Origin: a virus
IMG/VR virus record: IMGVR_UViG_3300032242_000388
Location: 1 to 33,562 of that record
Direction: 5' to 3' (one strand)
DNA length: 33,562 nt
Part shown: positions 3,369 through 16,031 of the stretch, one piece after another
How positions within the stretch are numbered: the stretch's first letter is position 1
Layout: every line of letters begins with the position of its first letter
The notes under the pieces: generated by a model
Database searches by the model: none
What the model was told of the DNA's origin: nothing
Seen by the model: the letters and a program-made list of their open reading frames with translations, nothing else
Program-made: the position numbers and the translations under genes

Positions 3369-3618
3369 CAATCTGCTCCTTAGTCCATAAACATACATAT
3401 CGTTGACGCAACAGCGTCATGTCAACCGCAAACATTTTCTGCAAGGGTGACAGCCTGCCGCCTTTTGTCTTGAGTTCCACAAACCACGTCTGCCCATCGG
3501 GCAGGCAAGCGATCCGGTCGGCTACGCCTTTGCGTCCTGGTGACGTAAACTTCCACGTCTTGCCGCCAGCGCGCTCGACGGCCCAAACAAAGTGTCGTTC
3601 AACTTCTGATTCTTTCAT
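3349..3618 (-). CDS. VRR-NUC domain nuclease
   Basis: An 89-residue single-domain VRR-NUC protein of the PD-(D/E)XK superfamily. The signature residues are visible: E5 in the first helix, K-G-V-A-D-R-I at 30-36 (active-site Asp34), E-L-K at 48-50, and a following S-P-L-Q with Q60. Stand-alone phage VRR-NUC proteins are thought to cut branched DNA structures and usually sit with a SNF2 helicase and polA, as in this window. This is the first gene of the leftward operon. There is hardly any leader: candidate -10 boxes lie about 7-13 bases before the ATG and no good ribosome binding site is present, so the mRNA could be leaderless. Confidence 0.9.
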   Translation of the reverse strand: MKESEVERHFVWAVERAGGKTWKFTSPGRKGVADRIACLPDGQTWFVELKTKGGRLSPLQKMFAVDMTLLRQRYVCLWTKEQIDEWSTR

Positions 3619-3625
3619 GGCCTAA

Positions 3626-3654
3626 AATATATCATGTAAAAAAGTTTTGCACAA
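3626..3654 (-). promoter_or_regulatory. Candidate sigma70-type promoter for the leftward operon
   Basis: Read leftward, TTGTGC (3654-3649) and TATATT (3631-3626) are separated by 17 bases. An alternative pair, TTGTTG with TGATAT, lies three bases further upstream. Transcription would start at about 3619-3622, nearly on the VRR-NUC ATG. The match is by eye. Confidence 0.45.
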
Positions 3655-3675
3655 CAATTATTTTTGATGTACACT
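3647..3675 (+). promoter_or_regulatory. Candidate sigma70-type promoter for the rightward replication operon
   Basis: TTGCAC (3647-3652) and TACACT (3670-3675) are spaced by 17 bases, giving a start about 24 bases before the ATG at 3706. Its -35 overlaps the -35 of the leftward promoter, so the two could compete for polymerase. AAAGGACAG at 3693-3700 supplies a ribosome binding site for the first gene. Confidence 0.45.
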
Positions 3676-3705
3676 GGCTTTCCCATCAACTAAAGGACAG
3701 TACAC

Positions 3706-3852
3706 ATGAAAATAGAATTCACCCGCGCTGAGATTGAGCGCATCATCTTGGACCATCTTCGTGATGAAGTTGCGCCCTACGTTAAATTTCAGCATCCCGT
3801 GGCCAACGAATGGGGCTTGCCCGCCATCATCATTGTGGAGTCAGCAGAATGA
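3706..3852 (+). CDS. Small protein, 48 aa, first gene of the rightward operon
   Basis: Starts MKIEFTRAEIERIILDHLRD and ends I-I-I-V-E-S-A-E. An N-terminal amphipathic helix is followed by a short hydrophobic strand. No family is recognised. Support comes from AAAGGACAG upstream, a candidate promoter at the right distance, and an ATGA overlap with the next gene. As the first gene after a divergent promoter it might be regulatory, but it has no helix-turn-helix that I can see. Confidence 0.7.
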   Translation: MKIEFTRAEIERIILDHLRDEVAPYVKFQHPVANEWGLPAIIIVESAE

Positions 3853-4082
3853 AAGACCCTGAATTCAAATACGTAGAGGTAACGGTTAAATTTGTTGGCG
3901 ACAACTATCAAGAGACGCGTGAGATGTACTCTCAGCGCATCAACTTTGTGTGGGCGTTTTTAAACCGTCCAATGCTTATCCAACAAATTGTGGCAGTCGT
4001 TAACGAGTTGGCGTTGCCTGACCTTGTTCACCGGTCGCCTACCCCCGGCTCTCAAATGGAGAAAAAAGATGCAGCACAGTAA
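3849..4082 (+). CDS. Small protein, 77 aa, unknown
   Basis: Starts MKDPEFKYVEVTVKFVGDNY. Beta-strand-like segments (YVEVTVKFV) are followed by helices rich in hydrophobics (MLIQQIVAVVNELALP). The start at 3849 overlaps the preceding stop as ATGA, with GGAG upstream; an in-frame ATG at 3810 would run inside the previous gene and is less likely. The last 14 bases overlap the start of the nuclease gene. Function is unknown. Confidence 0.7.
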   Translation: MKDPEFKYVEVTVKFVGDNYQETREMYSQRINFVWAFLNRPMLIQQIVAVVNELALPDLVHRSPTPGSQMEKKDAAQ

Positions 4083-5181
4083 TATCGTCGGCGGCTCGAC
4101 CGCCAAGCGCGTCATCAACTGCCCCGGCTCCGTAGTGCTGGTGCAAAAGATGCCTACCAAGCCATCCAGCGAACACGCTGACCGTGGCACGCTGTTGCAC
4201 AACGCCATTAGCGCCATCTTGGAAGACATGAACGTCGATGTGATCGGCATGAAGTACAAAGACCAAGTGCTGACGCAAGACTTGTACGACGAGAAGATCA
4301 TGACGGCGCTGGAGCTGTTAGATGAAGTAGACCCAAACAAGGAGATGATGTATGAAGTTGAAACCCGTGTTGGCTTCGGTGATCTCTTGCCTGGGGTATT
4401 TGGCAGCACTGACTTGGTTGGCCGTATTGGTACTCGTGCCATTGTTCTTGATTGGAAGTTTGGTGACGGCGTTGTCGTCGATGCTGAAGAAAATGATCAG
4501 TTGATGTTCTACGCGGCTGCGGCCATGCGCACGCCAGAGGCAGCGTGGGCGTTTGATGGCGCAACCGAGATCGAGTGCGTCATCGTGCAGCCGCCTATGA
4601 TGAAGCGCTGGGTCACCACAAGAGAGCGCATTGCGCAGTTTGAGCGCGATCTGGTCAAGGCCGTGAAGGCTGCACAGTTACCCAACGCCAAGCTGGCCGT
4701 GGGCGACCATTGCCGTTGGTGCGCCGCCAAGCCGGTGTGCCCCAAGATGACCGGCGCTGTGGACCGTGCGCTGCAAGTGCAACTGAAAGAAATAGACGTT
4801 GACACGCTGGGCAAATACCTGAAGAATGCAGACCTCTTAGAGGACTGGATCAAAGACCTGCGTGGTCTGGCGATGCAGTTGCTTGAGAAGTCTATGCCCG
4901 TGCCGGGCTACAAACTGGTCGCCAAGCGCGGTACAAGACAATGGGTTGATGAAGACGAAGCCGTGGCTATCTTAGGCGTTGCAGGCATTGACCCATACAA
5001 AGAACGTGAAGTGATTTCGCCTGCGCAGGCAGAGAAGTTACTTAAAAAGAGCAAGTTGACTTTGCCACCGGAATTAACGGTGTCATTGTCTTCAGGCACA
5101 ACACTGGCAAGCGAGGATGACCCCCGCCCAGCAGTGTTGCAGTTGAGTGGCCTGACGGCTGCTCTTTCTAAAATCCAATGA
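4069..5181 (+). CDS. Cas4/RecB-like PD-(D/E)XK nuclease with Fe-S cysteines (DUF2800 type)
   Basis: A 370-residue nuclease of the phage DUF2800 type. Visible features in order: C18 (INCPGS); E-H-A-D-R-G-T-L-L-H at 35-44, the helix with a conserved His; D115 in G-S-T-D-L-V-G; the catalytic V-L-D-W-K at 126-130; Q144 in the motif IV helix; and C215, C218 and C224. One N-terminal and three C-terminal cysteines is the arrangement that holds a 4Fe-4S cluster in Cas4 and AddB-like nucleases. The expected role is DNA end resection or recombination during replication. ATG 4069 has GGAG seven bases upstream; the in-frame ATG at 3988 would overlap the previous gene by nearly 100 bases. The ssDNA-binding candidate follows after nine bases. 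Confidence 0.88.
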   Translation: MQHSNIVGGSTAKRVINCPGSVVLVQKMPTKPSSEHADRGTLLHNAISAILEDMNVDVIGMKYKDQVLTQDLYDEKIMTALELLDEVDPNKEMMYEVETRVGFGDLLPGVFGSTDLVGRIGTRAIVLDWKFGDGVVVDAEENDQLMFYAAAAMRTPEAAWAFDGATEIECVIVQPPMMKRWVTTRERIAQFERDLVKAVKAAQLPNAKLAVGDHCRWCAAKPVCPKMTGAVDRALQVQLKEIDVDTLGKYLKNADLLEDWIKDLRGLAMQLLEKSMPVPGYKLVAKRGTRQWVDEDEAVAILGVAGIDPYKEREVISPAQAEKLLKKSKLTLPPELTVSLSSGTTLASEDDPRPAVLQLSGLTAALSKIQ

Positions 5182-7918: not shown

Positions 7919-10210
7919 ATGTCCGATTTTATAGAGTTTTTGACAGAGTTAGCGCCAGAAGGCGAAACTTTTTTGATGGTGCGCCAAAAGCCACAGCTTA
8001 AAGACAACCAATACCAATACCACGCCGATGGCGCGATCAAATGCACATGGCCTGCCATGCTGCCCGACGCCAAGGTCAAGCCCTCTTGGGCGATCTACGG
8101 CAACACCGCCAGTTTTATCGTTGACCGCTTTAAAGACGGCTATCCCGGCGCGCAGGCTGCCAACTGCGAATATGTGCTGGTCATGGTGCTGGATGACGTG
8201 GGCACCAAGGCCACCATCCCACCGCTTGAGCCGACGTGGAAGATGGAGACATCGCCCGGTTCGTTCCAATGGGGGTATGTCTTCAGCGAGCAGCCGACCA
8301 AAGCCGAGTTCAGCGCCGCCATCGTCGCCATTGCTGAAGCCGGTTACACCGACAAAGGCGCGATCAACGCCGTTCGTAATTTCCGCCTGCCTGGTAGCGT
8401 GAACCTCAAGCCCGGCCGTGATGAGTTCAAGTCGGTGCTGGTCGAGTTTCACGCCCACCGTGACTTCACATTGCATGAAATATGCACAGCGCTTAACGTG
8501 ACGCCCGGCGTGGCCACCGACGCATACAAGCCCATTCGCATTAGCGACGATGGCACCGATGACGTGATGGTTTGGCTGTCAGAGAACGGTCTGCTGCTAT
8601 CCAAACCCAATCAGGAGGGCTGGGCTGGCGTGATCTGCCCCAACAGCACCTCACATAGCGACGGCAACCCCGAAGGCCGTTATCTGCCCGCAAACCGGGC
8701 TTATTGCTGCCTGCACTCGCACTGCCTTGACTTCACATCATCGGTGTTCCTGCAATGGGTGGCCGACAATGGTGGCCCCAAGCACACGCCCGGCCTGCGT
8801 GAGGAACTGTTAACGACTGCGATGGAGTCTGCATTAGCCAAACTGACGCCCACCGCTGAATTCCCCGACGTGGTGGCCGACGTGGTGGCAGAGGTTGAGC
8901 GCAAGGAACTGGGACGGCTTGAGAAAGACGGCTGGTATGAACGCTTTGCATACCTGCAAGACGATGACGCCTTTTTCGATCTGGTTGAGCGCCATGAGGT
9001 GGCCCGGTATTCGTTTAACGCGATCTATCGGCACGTCCCTTGCAACAGCATCCACGGCAAGCGCCCCAAGATTGAAGCGGGCACCTGTTTTGACGAGAAT
9101 CGCCAAGCCAAGGGCGCGCGCATCTTGAAGGGCGTCACCTATGCCGCCGGTGAGACTATTCTTTGCTCACGCGATGGCATCGTGTACGGCAACCGCTGGC
9201 GCGATGCTCGGCCGGTGCCCGTGGCCGGTAACGTGAAGCCGTGGCTAGACCATGTGGAGCGCATGATCCCAGACGCTAAAGAGCGCACGCACATTTTGAA
9301 CGTGATGGCGTTTAAGGTTCAGCATCCGAACCGCAAAATCAACCACGCCGTACTGCATGGGGGCAACCCTGGGTCGGGCAAAGACACCATGTGGGCACCG
9401 TTTTTCTACGCGATCGGTGGGCAGTCGCTGCGTAACGTGTCGCTGGTGCGTAACGAGGAAGTGACTTCACAATGGGGCTATGCCCTTGAGACCGAAGTGC
9501 TGGTCATCAATGAATTGCGCCAGTCTGAGGCCAAGGACCGCCGGGCGCTTGAGAACACCCTAAAGCCCCTAATCGCTGCGCCGCCTGAATTCTTGGCCGT
9601 CCAACGCAAGGGCTTGGCCCCATATGATATGGTGAACCGCCTGCTGGTCGTGTCGTTTTCTAACGAGCGCGTGGCGATCAATCTGCCCTCAGACGACCGC
9701 CGGTGGTTTGTGGCGTGGTCTGACGCGCCGCGCATGAGTGACGCTGAGGGTGAGGTGATCTGGGCGTGGCTTGAATCGGGCGGCAAATCAGCCGTGGCGG
9801 CCTGGCTGCACCAGCGTGACGTGTCCGCATTTGCGCCTGGTGCCACCCCAATGATGACCGAGGCTAAGGCCATCATGGTTGAGGCCGGTATGTCGGGCGC
9901 TGAATCTTTCCTGGTTGACCTTATGCGCTCGCGTATCGGTGAGTTTAGCCGGGGCGTGGTGGGCGCGCCGTGGCACGCGCTGTGCGACCGTTTGCAGGGC
10001 ACTGCACAGGGTAGCGTCAAAGTCGTGCAACCGGCGCTCCTACATGCCTTTAAAGAGGCCGGGTGGGTTGACATGGGCCGGTTGAAGTCTCGCCGGTTCG
10101 ACAATAAAAAACACATTTTCTGCGCGCCTGAGATGGCCGGGGTGAGCCGGTCCGAATTGCGCGACATGGTGGAAGACCCGCCGCCAGTGTCGGTTCGATT
10201 GGTCAAGTAA
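7919..10210 (+). CDS. Primase-helicase: AEP/RepB-like primase with SF3-type (D5/DUF5906-like) helicase
   Basis: A 763-residue fusion protein that would open and prime the phage replication fork. The N-terminal half has the look of an archaeo-eukaryotic primase: VLVMVLDDVG with D92-D93, then N-F-R-L-P-G-S-V-N-L-K (154-164), the R..G..N.K signature of RepB-type primases. A Cys/His-rich segment (C240, H246, C263, C264, H266, H268, C269) may bind zinc. The C-terminal half is a phage SF3-like helicase: Walker A GGNPGSGKDT at 481-490, Walker B VLVINE ending at E532, and further conserved polar motifs (NTLKPLI). AAGGAGAGAG lies ahead of the ATG. It is the last gene of the rightward replication operon and ends at a strong terminator. 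Confidence 0.88.
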   Translation: MSDFIEFLTELAPEGETFLMVRQKPQLKDNQYQYHADGAIKCTWPAMLPDAKVKPSWAIYGNTASFIVDRFKDGYPGAQAANCEYVLVMVLDDVGTKATIPPLEPTWKMETSPGSFQWGYVFSEQPTKAEFSAAIVAIAEAGYTDKGAINAVRNFRLPGSVNLKPGRDEFKSVLVEFHAHRDFTLHEICTALNVTPGVATDAYKPIRISDDGTDDVMVWLSENGLLLSKPNQEGWAGVICPNSTSHSDGNPEGRYLPANRAYCCLHSHCLDFTSSVFLQWVADNGGPKHTPGLREELLTTAMESALAKLTPTAEFPDVVADVVAEVERKELGRLEKDGWYERFAYLQDDDAFFDLVERHEVARYSFNAIYRHVPCNSIHGKRPKIEAGTCFDENRQAKGARILKGVTYAAGETILCSRDGIVYGNRWRDARPVPVAGNVKPWLDHVERMIPDAKERTHILNVMAFKVQHPNRKINHAVLHGGNPGSGKDTMWAPFFYAIGGQSLRNVSLVRNEEVTSQWGYALETEVLVINELRQSEAKDRRALENTLKPLIAAPPEFLAVQRKGLAPYDMVNRLLVVSFSNERVAINLPSDDRRWFVAWSDAPRMSDAEGEVIWAWLESGGKSAVAAWLHQRDVSAFAPGATPMMTEAKAIMVEAGMSGAESFLVDLMRSRIGEFSRGVVGAPWHALCDRLQGTAQGSVKVVQPALLHAFKEAGWVDMGRLKSRRFDNKKHIFCAPEMAGVSRSELRDMVEDPPPVSVRLVK

Positions 10211-10215
10211 AAAAG

Positions 10216-10238
10216 AAGCCCCGTTAAGGGGCTTTTTT
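10216..10238. terminator. Bidirectional intrinsic terminator between convergent operons
   Basis: AAGCCCC (10216-10222), loop GTTAA, GGGGCTT (10228-10234), then T to 10238. An A-rich stretch on the other side makes it equally good leftward. It would end both the rightward replication operon and the leftward small-gene operon. Confidence 0.88.
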
Positions 10239-10296
10239 ATAGGTCAAGCAAGATGGCCAGCAAGGCCGCGATTAAAAGGCTAACTAGAACGAGCAT
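10237..10296 (-). CDS. Candidate 19-residue hydrophobic micropeptide
   Basis: The frame reads M-L-V-L-V-S-L-L-I-A-A-L-L-A-I-L-L-D-L and stops in the terminator T run. Every residue but one Ser and one Asp is hydrophobic, enough for one membrane span. AAAGG lies about eight bases before the ATG. It starts inside the end of the 59-residue gene in another frame, at the very end of the leftward operon. The peptide would sit in the inner membrane. It may be chance, since it is short and I cannot check conservation. Confidence 0.35.
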   Translation of the reverse strand: MLVLVSLLIAALLAILLDL

Positions 10297-10459
10297 CCGC
10301 GCGGCCTTTCTCGATCAGCGTGCGCGCGTAAGTTTGATCCTCTGGCCGTTCGCTGGAAAGCATTGCGCGCAACTTGTACGCGATCGCCTGGGCCCGGTCT
10401 GGACTGGCGCGTTCGTACGCGGCGCCAGCGTTAATATAGTCCGATTCAGTATGATTCAT
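10280..10459 (-). CDS. Small helical protein, 59 aa
   Basis: Starts MNHTESDYINAGAAYERASP and ends R-A-D-A-R-S-S. It is a short Ala/Arg-rich helical protein with no recognised family. GGAGAGG before the ATG is a strong ribosome binding site. The gene overlaps the end of its upstream neighbour by 14 bases, as expected in this leftward operon. The final 17 bases overlap the candidate hydrophobic micropeptide. Function is unknown. Confidence 0.7.
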   Translation of the reverse strand: MNHTESDYINAGAAYERASPDRAQAIAYKLRAMLSSERPEDQTYARTLIEKGRADARSS

Positions 10460-10769
10460 ATAAATCCTCTCCAGTGTATAGGGTAGCTGGCGCGTCGTTT
10501 AAAGGCTCAAATAGCGCGTTAACGTCCACGTCGGGACCGTATGGCATATTATGGGGCGCGCGTCGTCCTGGCTGGTACGTGTTCAATTCAAAGTACAGCC
10601 CCACATATTCCCGCGTGCTCATGCCGTCGTAAAACACCGGGTAGCGTCGTTTTTCCGCGCCCTTAGATTTAACAATTTTATGCTTGCCGGTGCACTTAGC
10701 GTGCGCCGCGTAAATGTCGCGCGCGTCGTTTACCCGGTACGTGGTCCGGTTGATTTTAATGGTTTGCAT
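10446..10769 (-). CDS. Unknown phage protein, 107 aa
   Basis: Starts MQTIKINRTTYRVNDARDIYA and ends E-D-L-Y-E-S-Y. The first half is basic (KHKIVKSKGAEKRRY) and the second acidic with many aromatic residues. Tyr and Arg are frequent and there is a single Cys at 26. It could be a small DNA-mimic or nucleic-acid-binding protein, but nothing specific is visible. AAGGGTAAACC precedes the ATG, a variant of the leader used by several genes in this operon. Confidence 0.72.
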   Translation of the reverse strand: MQTIKINRTTYRVNDARDIYAAHAKCTGKHKIVKSKGAEKRRYPVFYDGMSTREYVGLYFELNTYQPGRRAPHNMPYGPDVDVNALFEPLNDAPATLYTGEDLYESY

Positions 10770-10778
10770 GGTTTACCC

Positions 10779-10916
10779 TTAAAACGTAAGAATATCAAAG
10801 TAAGCTAGTGCCAGGACCGTGAGCGCGCCAGCGACAGCTAGCACGGTTAAAAAGTCCATAGCGGCCGCGCGTCGTTTTTCAATAGCTTCACGCGATGGGG
10901 AATAAGTGTATTTCAT
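10779..10916 (-). CDS. Small single-span membrane protein, 45 aa
   Basis: Starts MKYTYSPSREAIEKRRAAAM, a basic N-terminal segment. One hydrophobic span follows, about residues 21-41 (DFLTVLAVAGALTVLALAYF), and it ends D-I-L-T-F. Basic residues before the span predict a cytoplasmic N-terminus. AAGGTAAACA precedes the ATG. Single-span peptides of this size in phages can act in lysis control, superinfection exclusion or host membrane modulation. None of these is shown here, and the gene is far from the lysis region. Confidence 0.68.
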   Translation of the reverse strand: MKYTYSPSREAIEKRRAAAMDFLTVLAVAGALTVLALAYFDILTF

Positions 10917-10982
10917 TGTTTACCTTACTGTTACCGGATCAAATTGTCCGCGCATGGCCACCGCATGGCCATACACTGAAAA
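10917..10982. other. Short spacer inside the leftward operon
   Basis: A 66-base gap that holds the ribosome binding site of the 45-residue membrane protein and a direct repeat of GCATGGCCA (10953 and 10964 region). No convincing promoter or terminator is seen. It is the longest non-coding gap in this operon. Confidence 0.4.
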
Positions 10983-11207
10983 TTAAATCGTACAGCACCC
11001 ACAACATGGCGCATCTTCGCATCGGCCGCGCGAATTACGATAAAACGTCGTCGGACCGGTTTCCCCATAAAACGTGATTGTGTCGCTGTCGGGCTGCAGA
11101 CTGGCGCGCCGGGTAGCTGTATCGTATAGGATGACGTCGCCGGGGTTTATAGGCGCGCCGGACCGGCTACAACGGCCGGGAAACTTAGCTGTCATCGTTT
11201 TGATCAT
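10983..11207 (-). CDS. Cys-rich small protein, 74 aa, with terminal CCxCC cluster
   Basis: Starts MIKTMTAKFPGRCSRSGAPI. The segment K-F-x-G-x-C-x-x-(S/T)-G-x-x-I-x-x-G-D is like a half zinc ribbon or treble-clef knuckle: C13, then turn G23-D24. The C-terminus carries C63, C68, C69, C71 and C72 (PCCGCC), giving enough thiols for a metal site. The start at 11207 overlaps the upstream stop as ATGA, with AAGGTAACAGC before it. It is one of three consecutive Cys-rich, coupled genes. Possible roles are DNA binding or metal handling; function is unknown. Confidence 0.75.
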   Translation of the reverse strand: MIKTMTAKFPGRCSRSGAPINPGDVILYDTATRRASLQPDSDTITFYGETGPTTFYRNSRGRCEDAPCCGCCTI

Positions 11208-11380
11208 GCTGTTACCTTAAAATCAAAAAATGTAAACATGTCACATGTGCTGCAATATGCGCGCCATTGACCGCGCGCCGGTGGGTTTTCTACCGGCGTC
11301 GGTTGACCGGTTAATGGCCGGTTACAGCTAAAACAAGGGACCGGTTGACCGGCCGCGATAGTAGGAAATAATTTATTCAT
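11204..11380 (-). CDS. Zinc-ribbon-like small protein, 58 aa
   Basis: Starts MNKLFPTIAAGQPVPCFSCN. Two CxxC knuckles (C16-F-S-C19 and C43-S-T-C46) about 24 residues apart have the spacing of a zinc ribbon. The loop between them is Pro-rich (LTGQPTPVENPP), and the end is aromatic (FTFFDF). The ATG overlaps the stop of the 251-residue gene (ATGA), its own stop overlaps the next ATG, and GGGGTAGCAGC precedes the start. Zinc ribbons of this size often bind nucleic acid or RNA polymerase; which applies here is not visible. Confidence 0.78.
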   Translation of the reverse strand: MNKLFPTIAAGQPVPCFSCNRPLTGQPTPVENPPARGQWRAYCSTCDMFTFFDFKVTA

Positions 11381-12132
11381 GCTGCTACCCCAATTGAAAT
11401 GACGCGGCGCGCAAACCCGGCCGCATGGTCTGCAATGACAATGTCTTTAGCAGCGTTTGACGTACCGGCGCATAACATGCAATTGACGCATGTCGTTTTG
11501 CGGCCACCTTCGGCCGATGCGGGACAAGCTATTTCACCGGCTTGTTTATCAACACCGACGGAAACCCGGAAAACCCGCATACCGTACAAGTTAGCTTGCG
11601 CGGCTTCGTCAATAGTGTCCGCGCTTGCCATAACAAGCGGCGACCATGCTGCATGATCAAACCGGGTATCTTGCCACTGGTGGCTGTAACCGGCATGTCC
11701 GGCCGTAAATTGTGTTAATGCTTGCCATGTGGCCACTGGCGCGGCGAATGGATCGCCGTACGTACCGATGCGCAAGCGCTTACCCGCGATAACGCGCGCG
11801 ATTGTCGCCGGGTCCGCTTTCACGTACCGGCCGCGCTTGTATGCGTTAAAAACCGACAACACTGATTTTGCTACTTGAACATAGCATGGCACGTCGCCAG
11901 TCTCTTTAGCTAACACCGGCCGGTGCACGCACATGCCACACACTGAAACGTCGTCGCCGGTCTGCAGCGCTTGAACCGGGTTGACGTCGGACCGGATAAT
12001 AAAAGTCTGCACCAGCGCGCCGGTTTTGTCGTTTTTTGATGCGTCGTTGATCTTATTGACAATGACGACAATCGGCGCGCCGTCAATTTCCGACGGACCT
12101 TCGTACGCGATATAACCTAAAATTTTGCTCAT
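11377..12132 (-). CDS. Cys-cluster phage protein, 251 aa, unknown role
   Basis: Starts MSKILGYIAYEGPSEIDGAP. The N-terminal pattern G-Y-x-x-Y-E-G-P-S-x-I-D-G-A-P-I-V-V-I, followed by K-T-G-x-x-x-Q-T-x-I-(I/L)-R-x-D, recalls a conserved but uncharacterised phage protein. Eight Cys/His ligand candidates fall in two clusters: C65-x2-C68-x-H70 with C83, and C203, C215-x2-C218-x2-C221 (CVNCMLC). The second has the CxxCxxC spacing of Fe-S proteins, though a zinc site is also possible. It is not a radical SAM enzyme, since no CxxxCxxC is present. AAAGGTACAGT precedes the ATG, and its stop overlaps the zinc-ribbon gene. A redox or nucleic acid-modifying role is open. Confidence 0.75.
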   Translation of the reverse strand: MSKILGYIAYEGPSEIDGAPIVVIVNKINDASKNDKTGALVQTFIIRSDVNPVQALQTGDDVSVCGMCVHRPVLAKETGDVPCYVQVAKSVLSVFNAYKRGRYVKADPATIARVIAGKRLRIGTYGDPFAAPVATWQALTQFTAGHAGYSHQWQDTRFDHAAWSPLVMASADTIDEAAQANLYGMRVFRVSVGVDKQAGEIACPASAEGGRKTTCVNCMLCAGTSNAAKDIVIADHAAGFARRVISIGVAA

Positions 12133-12158
12133 ACTGTACCTTTACTTTAGTGAATGAT

Positions 12159-12176
12159 GACCGGCTTGCGCCGGTC
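12159..12176 (-). promoter_or_regulatory. Hairpin with GCAA tetraloop in the leader of the 251-aa gene
   Basis: Read leftward, GACCGGC, loop GCAA, GCCGGTC: a perfect seven-base-pair stem closed by a GNRA tetraloop. No T run follows, so it is not a classic terminator. It lies between the 69-residue gene and the 251-residue gene, about 27 bases before the latter's ATG, and may be a processing or stability element. Confidence 0.45.
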
Positions 12177-12186
12177 CGGGTTTGAT

Positions 12187-12396
12187 TTAATAAGCTACTA
12201 AACAATGATTTTCAGTGTAGAACTTATGCGACAGCTTGCGATCCTTAATGATCGCCAGGATCATTTTTTGGTCTGACGCTGTACCGACGCGCTGCAGCGT
12301 CGCCAAAATTCGGCAAGCATGATCAATATACGGGCTGTCCTTAATTTCAAGTAATGACAGCGCTAAGCTCAATTCGCGGGTATTTGCTTTGTTCAT
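12187..12396 (-). CDS. Small helical protein, 69 aa, first gene of the leftward operon
   Basis: Starts MNKANTRELSLALSLLEIKD and ends E-N-H-C-L-V-A-Y. Its helices have regular leucines (ELSLALSLLEI; ACRILATLQRV), followed by a basic stretch (KDRKLSHKF). It resembles small phage helical-bundle proteins but has no diagnostic motif. The start at 12396 is preferred to 12465 because GGAG lies upstream. It is the gene nearest the repeat array, so binding there is conceivable, but no helix-turn-helix is obvious. Confidence 0.7.
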   Translation of the reverse strand: MNKANTRELSLALSLLEIKDSPYIDHACRILATLQRVGTASDQKMILAIIKDRKLSHKFYTENHCLVAY

Positions 12397-12506
12397 TTGG
12401 TAGCTCCGTTGTTGTGTGAGACTACAGTGTAAGCGATTTCCGTACATAAAACGATGTCCACGCAAAATAGCGTAAAGAAATATGTAACAGAGTGTAACAG
12501 CGCAAA

Positions 12507-12552
12507 TTGTGGCTGATTGTGGCCGATTGTGGACATTGTGGAGCGGTTGTGG
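12507..12552 (+). repeat. Five TTGTGG repeats at helical spacing
   Basis: TTGTGG starts at 12507, 12517, 12527, 12536 and 12547, spacings of 10, 10, 9 and 11 bases. This places all five copies on one face of the helix. Two of them (12527 and 12547) extend to TTGTGGAC. Confidence 0.75.
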
Positions 12553-12718
12553 ACTGGTGATTTGGCGCGAGATTGTCCACGCTCTAAGCCCCTAGATTCA
12601 AGGCTTTGAGCATTTTGTGGACATTGTGGATAGTGTTTTTCTTATAGTGGGTAAAGGATAAGTACTATGTATATAAACACAGTAATACTCAATATGGGGT
12701 AGACCAACTGAAAACGCA

Positions 12719-12744
12719 TTGTCCACATGTCCACATTGTCCACA
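12719..12744 (-). repeat. Three tandem (T/A)TGTCCACA boxes
   Basis: TTGTCCACA at 12719-12727, ATGTCCACA at 12727-12735 and TTGTCCACA at 12736-12744, packed head to tail in opposite orientation to the 12507-12552 group. The first two share one base. Confidence 0.75.
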
Positions 12745-12795
12745 CTTTAGATCGGCGCATTTTGCTGGCGCGCGTACATGTGGGCATTGTGGACC

Positions 12796-12839
12796 ATGCA
12801 TTAATGCATCGTGTTGGTCCGCATGTGGACTGTCCACAT
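12796..12839. repeat. Two perfect palindromes in the repeat array
   Basis: ATGCATTAATGCAT (12796-12809) is a 14-base perfect palindrome. ATGTGGACTGTCCACAT (12823-12839) is two boxes facing each other around a single T. A third, GTGGACAGTCCAC, lies at 12873-12885. Inverted pairs one base apart suit binding by a dimer. Confidence 0.7.
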
Positions 12840-12885
12840 TGTCCACAATCTAAGGGGGCTATGCGACCTGGTGTGGACAGTCCAC

Positions 12886-13094
12886 TTGACCCACAGCCAT
12901 TCCGGATTCGGCATGAGGGGGAGGGGGTAGGGCCGACGGCATAGGGCCTGCTGCAACGGAGCGTCTGCGAACAATTTTTTTGCAATGAAATTTTTTATTT
13001 TTTAAAAACCAACCGTCAAGTAATCCTTGACAGTTGGCGGCTAATTAAAAAATGCTTTATCATTCATGCACGCATCTACGCGGCCATACAACAT
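12886..13094. promoter_or_regulatory. Leader region of the structural operon with AT tracts, hairpin and candidate -35
   Basis: After a G-rich stretch (12914-12935), T tracts at 12975-12981, 12991-12996 and 12998-13003 make the DNA AT-rich and possibly bent. Next comes an inverted repeat (13009-13037) that contains a consensus TTGACA (13027-13032). The -10 is uncertain: AAAAAT after 15 bases, or TTTATC within TGCTTTATC after 23. No good ribosome binding site precedes the ATG at 13095. The region probably drives the late genes. Confidence 0.4.
13009..13037. repeat. Inverted repeat overlapping a TTGACA box
   Basis: CCAAC-C-GTCAAG, loop TAATC, CTTGAC-A-GTTGG: eleven of twelve positions pair. 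Read leftward it is followed by TTTTT, so it could terminate leftward transcription entering the repeat array. Read rightward the TTGACA of a possible promoter lies inside the right arm, which would suit an operator. Confidence 0.55.
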
Positions 13095-13553
13095 ATGAGT
13101 TTTTATTCACTGCCACTCGTCATCAATGAAGTGCGCGCCACGGAGGCGGTGCTTAACCGTATCTACGACGCGGCCAAGCTGGGCTTGAAGGGCGACAACC
13201 TGGCGCTGGCCGCAGGGCTGCTGCCCAAGGCGTACCGCCAACTGTGCGAGTTGGACCCGATCGCTGAGATGGCCGAACAGAAGGGCCGCGCTGAAGGCGA
13301 GATGACCGCATCCAAGCAACTGCACCAAGCAGCCGCCGAAGGCGACGCCAAAGCGGCGCTGGCCATTCTCCAGAACGTCCACGGCTGGGTAGCCAAGCAG
13401 TCCATCACTGTCGATGTGGACCAGCGCATATCTATCATCGGCGCACTGGCCGAGGCCGAACGACGCGCAGCGGATGTAATCGACGTCATAGCGCACGAAC
13501 CCACGCCGACGCTAAAGGCCCGGTTGGCCCCTGCGCGGCAGAGGGCTGAATAA
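13095..13553 (+). CDS. Probable terminase small subunit, 152 aa
   Basis: Starts MSFYSLPLVINEVRATEAVL. It is almost all helix, with a central acidic/basic segment (AEMAEQKGRAEGEM) and a C-terminal helix rich in Ala, Glu and Arg. No helix-turn-helix is clear, and the assignment rests mainly on position. It directly precedes the large terminase, and its stop overlaps that ATG (TAATG), as terS-terL pairs often do. Small terminases recognise the packaging site, which may lie in the repeat region just upstream. No Shine-Dalgarno sequence precedes the ATG, and no better in-frame start is seen. Confidence 0.62.
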   Translation: MSFYSLPLVINEVRATEAVLNRIYDAAKLGLKGDNLALAAGLLPKAYRQLCELDPIAEMAEQKGRAEGEMTASKQLHQAAAEGDAKAALAILQNVHGWVAKQSITVDVDQRISIIGALAEAERRAADVIDVIAHEPTPTLKARLAPARQRAE

Positions 13554-15082
13554 TGCAAACCACACGCTACTCGGCCGAAGACGAACAAGAATTGATGGCG
13601 CGGCTATGGTCGCCGCAGTACAAAGACAACCCGCTGGCGTTTGTAAAGTTTACGTTCCCGTGGGGCGTCAAGGGTACGCCACTGGAGAACTTTGACGGGC
13701 CGCGCAAATGGCAGCGCGAAGTGCTGCAAGAAATCACCACCCAGATACAAGCAAACAAAGGCTTGGTTGACTTCAACACCCTACGGCACACGGTCTCGTC
13801 TGGCCGGGGTATCGGCAAGTCCGCGCTGGTCTCGTGGATCGTGCTGTGGATGCTAACCACGCGGATTGGCTCAACGACCATCGTGTCGGCTAACTCGGAA
13901 AGCCAGCTGAGAAGTGTCACATGGGCCGAGATTACCAAGTGGCTGGCTATGTCACTTAACAGCCACTGGTTTGAAGTCTCGGCCACCAGGTTGATGCCCG
14001 CCAAGTGGCTGACCGAACTGGTTGAGCGCGATCTGAAGAAGGGCACACGCTACTGGGGCGTTGAGGGGCGGCTGTGGTCGGCTGAGAACCCGGACGCCTA
14101 CGCGGGTGTGCACAACTTTGACGGCGTGATGGTGATCTTTGATGAGGCCAGCGGTATAGACGACGCCATCTGGGCGGTGACGTCAGGCTTCTTTACGGAG
14201 AACACACCCAATCGGTTCTGGCTGGCGTTTAGCAACCCTCGGCGCAACAGCGGGTACTTCTACGAGACGTTCCACAGCAAGCGTGAGTTCTGGGTGACCA
14301 AGGTAGTGGACGCCCGCACTGTTGAGGGCACGGACAAGCAGGTCTATCAACAGATCATTGACGAATACGGGCCGGACTCTAGCCAAGCGCACGTTGAGGT
14401 GTACGGCGAGTTTCCCAACGCCGGGGACGATCAGTTTATCTCCAGCATGGTGGTCGATGACGCCATGAAACGGCCTAAGTATCAAGACCCGTCAGCGCCT
14501 ATAGTGATCGGCGTGGACCCGGCGCGGTTTGGTGCGGACGCCACGGTGCTGGCGATCCGGCAGGGCCGGGATATTGTCAAGATCATGCGGCACAGGGGCG
14601 ACGACACCATGACGGTAGTCGGGCATGTGATCGAAGCCATTGAGGAATGGAAGCCCGCGATGGTGTTTATTGACGAAGGCGGGCTGGGCGCTGGGATTGT
14701 GGACCGGCTCAAAGAGCAGCGGTACAAAATCAAGGGCGTTAACTTTGGCTGGAAGTCCAAAAACCCGGCGATGTACGGCAATATGCGCGCGCAGATTTGG
14801 GGCGATATGCGCGAATGGCTTAAAAGCGCCAGCATTCCAAACGACAGGTTCTTGAAATCTGATTTGATTTCGCCTATGATGAAGCCAGATTCCAAAGGCT
14901 CAATATTTTTGGAGTCTAAGAAAGACATGAAGGCGCGCGGTTTAGCGTCGCCGGATGCTGCGGATGCGATAGCGCTGACGTTCTCGTATCCAGTAGCCAG
15001 TCGTGGGGACTTGAGTGCCCGCACCGAGCGGCGCACGGTTTCTGAGCGCGGCGCAGTTGCAACTTCTTGGATGGGATTTTGA
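13553..15082 (+). CDS. terL: Terminase large subunit
   Basis: A 509-residue DNA packaging motor. The ATPase domain shows Walker A SGRGIGKS at 83-90 and Walker B M-V-I-F-D-E at 193-198, with catalytic Glu198. The nuclease domain shows G-V-D-P-A-R-F-G at 320-327 (D322), V-F-I-D-E-G-G at 371-377 (D374), and S-P-D-A-A-D-A at 466-472 (D468, D471), the RNase H-like metal ligands. It cuts and pumps concatemeric DNA through the portal into the prohead. Its length is typical. It overlaps the terS-like gene by one base. The headful or cos mode cannot be told from the protein alone; P22-like head genes suggest headful packaging. Confidence 0.95.
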   Translation: MQTTRYSAEDEQELMARLWSPQYKDNPLAFVKFTFPWGVKGTPLENFDGPRKWQREVLQEITTQIQANKGLVDFNTLRHTVSSGRGIGKSALVSWIVLWMLTTRIGSTTIVSANSESQLRSVTWAEITKWLAMSLNSHWFEVSATRLMPAKWLTELVERDLKKGTRYWGVEGRLWSAENPDAYAGVHNFDGVMVIFDEASGIDDAIWAVTSGFFTENTPNRFWLAFSNPRRNSGYFYETFHSKREFWVTKVVDARTVEGTDKQVYQQIIDEYGPDSSQAHVEVYGEFPNAGDDQFISSMVVDDAMKRPKYQDPSAPIVIGVDPARFGADATVLAIRQGRDIVKIMRHRGDDTMTVVGHVIEAIEEWKPAMVFIDEGGLGAGIVDRLKEQRYKIKGVNFGWKSKNPAMYGNMRAQIWGDMREWLKSASIPNDRFLKSDLISPMMKPDSKGSIFLESKKDMKARGLASPDAADAIALTFSYPVASRGDLSARTERRTVSERGAVATSWMGF

Positions 15083-15654: not shown

Positions 15655-15792
15655 ATGCCACTCGTTAAATCTAAATCGCCCGAGGCGTTCCGCAAGAACG
15701 TCAAAGCTGAGATCAAAGCTGGCAAGCCAGTGAAACAAGCCGTGGCAATCGCGTATGCGGTTAAACGTGCAACGCCGCCAAAGAAAAAATGA
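15655..15792 (+). CDS. Small basic phage protein, 45 aa (KQAVAIAYAVKR type)
   Basis: Starts MPLVKSKSPEAFRKNVKAEI and contains GKPVKQAVAIAYAVKR before a Lys tail. This is a widespread tiny phage protein with the pattern (S)-P-x-A-F-x-x-N-x-x-x-E-x-x-x-G-K-P-x-K-Q-A-V-A-I-A-Y. Its role is unknown. The stop overlaps the start of the Cpn10-like gene (ATGA). Confidence 0.78.
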   Translation: MPLVKSKSPEAFRKNVKAEIKAGKPVKQAVAIAYAVKRATPPKKK

Positions 15793-16031
15793 CCCCAAAA
15801 GCCCTGCAAAACTGCATAATCATGGACCGTGATGTTGAGACTCACGCATTGTTTGTGCTGCCCCCCGGTGAAAAACTTCCAACGGGTGTGATAGTATCCG
15901 CTGGACCTGACTGCAAAGAACTCAAAGTCGGCGACCGGGTATACTTCGATGTAGGGCAAGAATTTACGCACATGGGCAAAGAGTATGTCCTGATGCGCGA
16001 ACCTCACGTTTTAGGGGTCTTTAATGGCTGA
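15789..16031 (+). CDS. GroES/Cpn10-like co-chaperonin, 80 aa
   Basis: Starts MTPKALQNCIIMDRDVETHA. The GroES-like features are GVIVSAGPDCKELKVGDRVY, then F-D-V-G-Q-E-F and G-K-E-Y-V-L-M-R-E-P-H-V-L-G-V, matching the Cpn10 pattern v-G-D-x-V-x-F...eY-x-v-m-r-E...iLgv. Phage Cpn10-like proteins may replace host GroES so that GroEL can fold the coat protein, as T4 gp31 does. At 80 residues it is slightly shorter than GroES (97). It starts on the previous stop (ATGA), and its end overlaps the portal start by eight bases. Confidence 0.75.
   Translation: MTPKALQNCIIMDRDVETHALFVLPPGEKLPTGVIVSAGPDCKELKVGDRVYFDVGQEFTHMGKEYVLMREPHVLGVFNG

Follow-up and report, generated by a model that had tools for sequence, protein, structure and literature searches.

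The Box Array and Its Surroundings

The window, as we call the whole stretch of DNA analyzed here, is a 33,562-base IMG/VR virus record whose gene content includes a P22-like portal, a family-A DNA polymerase, a DUF2800 exonuclease and a primase-helicase. The primase-helicase gene (7919–10210, + strand) encodes a 763-aa protein, the putative initiator, with an N-terminal AEP-like primase, an SF3-type helicase (DUF5906) and a predicted C-terminal winged helix. A dense array of short boxes starts ~2.2 kb past its stop codon, between leftward ORFs (11377–12465) and the rightward terS and terL genes (13095–15082), a placement between two operons that agrees with a first-pass annotation of this DNA. 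The same annotation had counted 14 copies of GTGGAC/GTCCAC in 430 bp with ~0.2 expected, and an exact count (14 at 12456–12885; 0.19 expected per 430 bp) together with dinucleotide shuffles reproduced this figure. The motif occurred 36 times in the whole window, and the shuffles gave a mean of 14.5 per window. A position weight matrix (PWM) of the full box found 12 sites of ≥12 bits within 12440–12980 and two in the remaining 33 kb, with no second array elsewhere in the window; the proposed check of box density in the rest of the genome thus favored a single array. The region had also been called the only long gene-free stretch, but the interval 10211–11376 likewise holds small ORFs only.

The boxes lie in both orientations and have the consensus TGTGGACA(A)TG, or TGTGGACAATG in the frame shared with relatives. 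The exact 9-mer TTGTCCACA, earlier described as present in many copies, was counted just three times, and the E. coli-type TTATCCACA was absent from the array. By PWM scan, the left arm (12508–12635, + strand) carries boxes mostly on the + strand, among them TGTGGCTGATT at 12508, TGTGGCCGATT at 12518, TGTGGACATTG at 12528 and TGTGGACTGGT at 12548, followed by an inverted box, CGTGGACAATC (12571–12581, − strand), and a tandem pair at 12616/12625; an outlier box lies at 12452–12462 (− strand). The AT profile places next to this arm a core of ~70% AT without strong boxes (12636–12716), the presumed melting site. Beyond the core, the right arm (12717–12895, − strand) has boxes at 12717(−), 12725(−), 12734(−), 12779(+), 12788(+), 12828(−), 12837(−) and 12872(+), with a weaker one at 12885(−); same-strand neighbors in this arm are spaced 8–9 bp apart, and a palindrome, TGTGGACTGTCCACA, occupies 12824–12838. 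No RNA family was found in an Rfam search of the window, and a blastn comparison with phage records returned no match to the array.

Between the array and terS (small terminase subunit; 13095–13553, + strand) lies a G-rich element consisting of GGGGGAGGGGGTAGGGCC, a conserved stretch and AACAATTTTTTT (12914–12985, + strand). It was found in 85 of 115 relatives, with all main box types, at a median of 558 bp upstream of terL, and is a candidate packaging (cos/pac) site outside the box system. On the other side, the gene for p251 (251 aa, PHROG 2554; 11377–12132, − strand) adjoins the array in only about one-quarter of relatives. The phage also encodes a GroES-like co-chaperonin (PHROG 3188; 15789–16031), just upstream of the portal gene.

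Arrays and Box Types in Related Phages

Two scans of viral contigs with TerL and the primase-helicase yielded 156 relatives. Where the contig extends upstream of terL, nearly all carry an array there, not always of GTGGAC, and in more than 110 distinct relatives 10–30 boxes surround an AT-rich core at this same site immediately before the terminase genes. Per-locus motif discovery returned 10–29 boxes of 11 bp with EM scores of 67–199, compared with 39–54 when 15 of the regions were shuffled. The arms are inverted in relatives as well: across 114 distinct arrays, boxes to the left of the AT-richest 50 bp numbered 653 on the + strand and 276 on the − strand, and those to the right 379 and 876, respectively. 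Same-strand neighbors were most commonly spaced 9 bp apart (417 neighbors), while neighbors passing from − to + were most often 45 bp apart.

The box types, written in a common frame, are TGTGGACAATG (the window), TGTTGGCTATG, TGTGRGTCATT, TTTGGGTCATT, TGTAAGTCATG and TGTGGGCTATG, and phages whose TerL proteins are >90% identical can differ in box. The earlier suggestion to look for the array in close relatives therefore had a divided outcome, since the position is retained and the box sequence is not. Several box types occur within the same lake samples (e.g., L010 and L022 in IMG 3300042465), which is compatible with selection against cross-firing. Among bacterial genomes, the only close match was a Rhodoferax-binned contig with a primase 80% identical, the wing residues KSRRHD (see below) and 12 GTGGAC per 500 bp.

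Some arrays had additional features. Locus L150, with a Q-type wing, has 27 Q boxes plus ~10 copies of GTGGAC, possibly a transitional or chimeric array. In one lineage, a second array of GTTAGTG/CACTAAC palindromes lies between the boxes and terS whatever box type adjoins (L081, L079, L028, L056, L059, L073 and L080; also L288 and L308–L310). Phage DSL-LC05 (L159; OR003940) has an array of TGACCCACTGGGTCA palindromes at 3500–4290, in the same place upstream of terS; its primase gene sits elsewhere in the genome, outside the primase comparison.

The first-pass annotation had proposed an origin with DnaA-like boxes. The host protein DnaA might be expected to bind such an array, as TTGTCCACA differs from the E. 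coli DnaA box by one base; TGTGGAC-type arrays also contain more TTWTNCACA than expected (28 vs. 3.3), an excess that follows from the shared core. None of the 24 loci of type Q (13), N (6) or K (5) contains this DnaA motif, however. Among relatives whose TerL proteins are up to 100% identical and whose primase bodies are nearly the same, the boxes are quite different, and because the sequence differs between such close relatives, host DnaA could not be the reader; moreover, the box tracks a phage protein, as described below. We consider a DnaA-type origin very improbable. The candidate origin itself stood, on the strength of the conserved array, its inverted arms around an AT-rich core and covariation with the primase-helicase.

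Covariation of the Boxes With the Primase-Helicase

In a sliding-window test of eight proteins, residues 705–749 of the primase-helicase separated same-box from different-box pairs with AUC values of 0.94, 0.92 and 0.85, whereas no window of the other tested proteins exceeded 0.75. A label-free test compared box-PWM distance with protein-window distance, corrected for TerL distance, over 410 windows of 12 phage proteins. The top three windows were all from the primase, namely 715–734 (partial r 0.64), 725–744 and 705–724; the best value for any other protein was 0.32. The class of the wing, a short loop within these windows, equaled the box class in 86 of 88 distinct loci, the classes having been assigned by the analyst, with the weakly assigned L038, L039 and L041 grouped with L033, which shares their wing and boxes. 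The minimum number of changes over which this agreement holds is ~12 on the primase tree and 31 on the TerL tree. Only two loci deviated: L056, with a second motif also present in its array, and L080, which combines an unusual wing (KSSLHD) with TATGGAC boxes. The iteron origin read by a phage protein, offered earlier as the alternative to DnaA, is supported by these results.

Other candidate readers were rejected. PolA, the DUF2800 exonuclease, the product of the 5191–5835 gene, the VRR nuclease, the DEAD helicase, TerL and the portal showed no covariation with the boxes, and p251 is missing from most relatives and is ~94–95% identical in L002 and L099 despite their different boxes. Small terminase requires closer attention, since the array could be a packaging site (pac/cos) bound by TerS: it lies directly upstream of terS in 122 of 122 loci compared, and, of the other genes in the primase–terL interval, terS alone is common to all of them. 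Yet the first 130 residues of TerS are identical in L051 (TGTGGAC), L152 (TTTGGGT) and L155 (TGTGAGT), that is, across G, Q and S boxes, which rules TerS out as the box reader, and its windows reached a partial r of ≤0.11 in the label-free test. The separate G-rich element, kept across box types, is a better packaging candidate, and a packaging role for the array is thus highly unlikely.

DUF5906 was detected in 57 of 57 primase-helicases and a weak RepB_primase match in 31 of the 57. The helicase core (residues 459–661; 9293–9901, + strand) resembles the C-terminal region (CTR) of the NrS-1 primase-polymerase (PDB 6k9c, 6lrb), the closest solved relative, in an hmmsearch of PDB (E 6e-10) and in Foldseek, where the full-length model matched the NrS-1 CTR (E 3.6e-12) and PriRep1 with dsDNA (E 1.2e-6); except in the helicase and the C-terminal domain, this model is poor. 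An AlphaFold2 model of residues 641–763 had a mean pLDDT of 83.6, mostly >90 in the 659–735 core (9893–10123, + strand), and its H-b-H-H-b-b topology fits a winged helix. Foldseek of the C-terminal domain against PDB gave no significant match (best E 0.25), so that we use the name winged helix on the basis of the predicted topology. In the model, the variable residues fall in the loop between strands 717–723 and 730–735, which in the window reads K723-S-R-R-F-D-N729 (10085–10105, + strand) and covaries with the box sequence. The helix before this wing (704–714; QPALLHAFKEA in the window) is nearly invariant.

Pairing of Wing Loops and Boxes

Wings of the form K-S-R-x-[FYH]-D were paired with TGTGGAC boxes, A-S-R-[AG]-[YH]-[QG] with TGTTGGC, V-A-S-[GSA]-D-x-[QP] with TTTGGGT, L-L-K-S-R-A-[HN]-[TP] with TGTGRGT and A-S-R-D-Y-L with TGTAAGT. 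In most types R725 accompanies G2 of the box; K, A or S at residue 723 occurs with G, T or C, respectively, at box base 4. We do not claim a strict single-residue code; E728 pairs with TGTGGgC in L047 and with TGTGGaC in L294.

A near-isogenic switch is seen in L010 and L011, which have 100% identical TerL proteins and primases that are 98.8% identical over residues 1–640 and 99% over 641–715. Their wings are ASRGYQ and KSRRHD, and their boxes TGTTGGC and TGTGGAC, respectively. The two arrays align, with the AT core in common and successive boxes rewritten at matching positions. Mismatches climb sharply at the 3′ end of the primase gene, a pattern suggesting acquisition of the wing by recombination.

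Two further scans with distant primases as queries provided ~150 more loci. Three core types could be tested, and in 49 of 49 further loci where an array of one of them was detectable, the core predicted from the wing ranked top. In 33 of 81 further relatives whose wing was identical to a known one at ≥11 of 13 positions, the density of each of the three cores fell below 6 per 500 bp; some of these 33 carry variant boxes (TGTGGGC, TGTCGGC). At least 12 loci with the wing ASREYQ showed no matching array in the sequence searched. New wings were accompanied by new boxes: SSREFQ by TGTCGGC, MSRDY[PT] by TGTTAGTCATG and ASRAHS by TGTAGGCAAT. The Manatee Spring phage, with a primase ~49% identical, has TGTAAAC boxes. 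In L171 and L173, the wing HSRDFP occurs with a dense array of GCCGTAGCCGT, outside the usual TGT frame and ~1.5 kb after the primase.

A Candidate Origin and Its Putative Reader

Taken together, the sequence comparisons suggest that the array is very probably an origin of replication, and we are fairly confident of the fuller reading in which the primase-helicase binds the boxes as iterons through its C-terminal winged helix. Cumulative GC skew, put forward earlier as a check, has its minimum at ~3.5–4 kb, away from the array, and so gives this site no support as an origin. In the mechanism we propose, two helicase rings facing each other would be seated on box pairs with 9-bp spacing, which lie in inverted arms to the left and right of the AT-rich core, and unwinding driven by ATP would open the core. 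The AEP-type primase part would then prime, and the phage family-A DNA polymerase would extend. A six- to seven-residue wing loop (K723–N729 in the window) may read most of the box bases.

The evidence for binding would fit regulation as well as initiation, and the array might instead be an operator or copy-control region at which the primase-helicase regulates replication or transcription, as at P4 crr, which exists besides ori. Its location between divergent leftward and rightward genes would suit such a role. Against it, the window yielded no other array, an AT-rich core separates the two arms, and a promoter and terminator scan of the array region detected nothing above chance. A purely regulatory array thus appears unlikely, if slightly less so than DnaA binding or packaging.

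If the array is the origin, initiator and array would form a matched pair whose specificity has been switched repeatedly among close relatives. We lean, with some reservation, toward viewing the pair as a recognition locus whose many specificities exclude one another, in which the ~7-residue wing loop rather than the recognition helix picks the box, entire arrays are rewritten when the wing changes, and close relatives from the same lake cannot fire each other's origins. Diversification may possibly serve to prevent co-infecting relatives or satellites from cross-replicating. What is new here is the phage family, the number of its specificities and the link from specificity to the wing loop. 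A likely origin and its likely reader are hereby identified in an abundant, little-studied group of freshwater podoviruses, which constitute a natural data set, with near-isogenic switch pairs, linking wing residues to DNA bases. How the wing of a winged helix encodes base specificity, and why phage initiators switch origin specificity so often, become testable questions.

Comparison With Known Systems

The array likely fits the kind of iteron origin served by a self-loading primase-helicase, as with P4 alpha and the Rep proteins of SaPIs and PICIs. The C-terminal domain of SaPI Rep recognizes origin iterons (PMC7581432), and PICI origins have two iteron sets on either side of an AT-rich region (PMC6092414). 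SaPI/PICI Rep or PriRep proteins (PriRep1, PDB 7pds; SCCmec Cch2) likewise combine a primase, a helicase and a C-terminal dsDNA-binding domain that reads iterons, and the helicase fold of PriRep1 matches that of the phage protein. As in the SaPI/PICI/P4 kind, the phage array has its short repeats divided into two sets by an AT-rich core, and the putative initiator has SF3/D5-type helicase and primase parts; that its C-terminal domain sets iteron specificity is indicated by the covariation. Position differs, as the SaPI origin is directly 3′ of rep whereas the phage array is ~2.2 kb from the initiator gene, beside terS. Furthermore, SaPIs and PICIs are satellite islands, while the phage system spans a whole podovirus lineage with 10–30 boxes, and its relatives show at least eight box specificities, mapped to the wing.

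P4 alpha unites a primase and a helicase in one protein and binds origin repeats through a C-terminal winged helix (PMC4234260), a make-up like that predicted for the phage protein. Its primase is of the bacterial TOPRIM type, unlike the AEP-like N terminus of the phage protein, and its origin-binding domain was not among the 50 best fold matches of the phage C-terminal domain. NrS-1 uses its N-terminal part to prime at 5′-TTTGGTTA-3′ and GTG on the template (PMC8718748), and this 8-mer occurs just twice in its genome (PMC7102993). The 8-mer resembles the Q box, but we rejected it as a direct precedent: the N-terminal part is the reader in NrS-1, and no box array has been described there, in contrast to the phages studied here.

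Finally, pRN1 ORF904 and the replication protein of Bordetella phage BIP-1 have the architecture predicted for the phage protein, namely an AEP primase, an SF3 helicase and a C-terminal winged helix. Proteins of this kind have been proposed to assemble at a stem-loop rather than at iterons (PMC4234260). The phages described here have a box array instead, and would be a counter-example to this view of AEP-SF3-winged-helix replication proteins.
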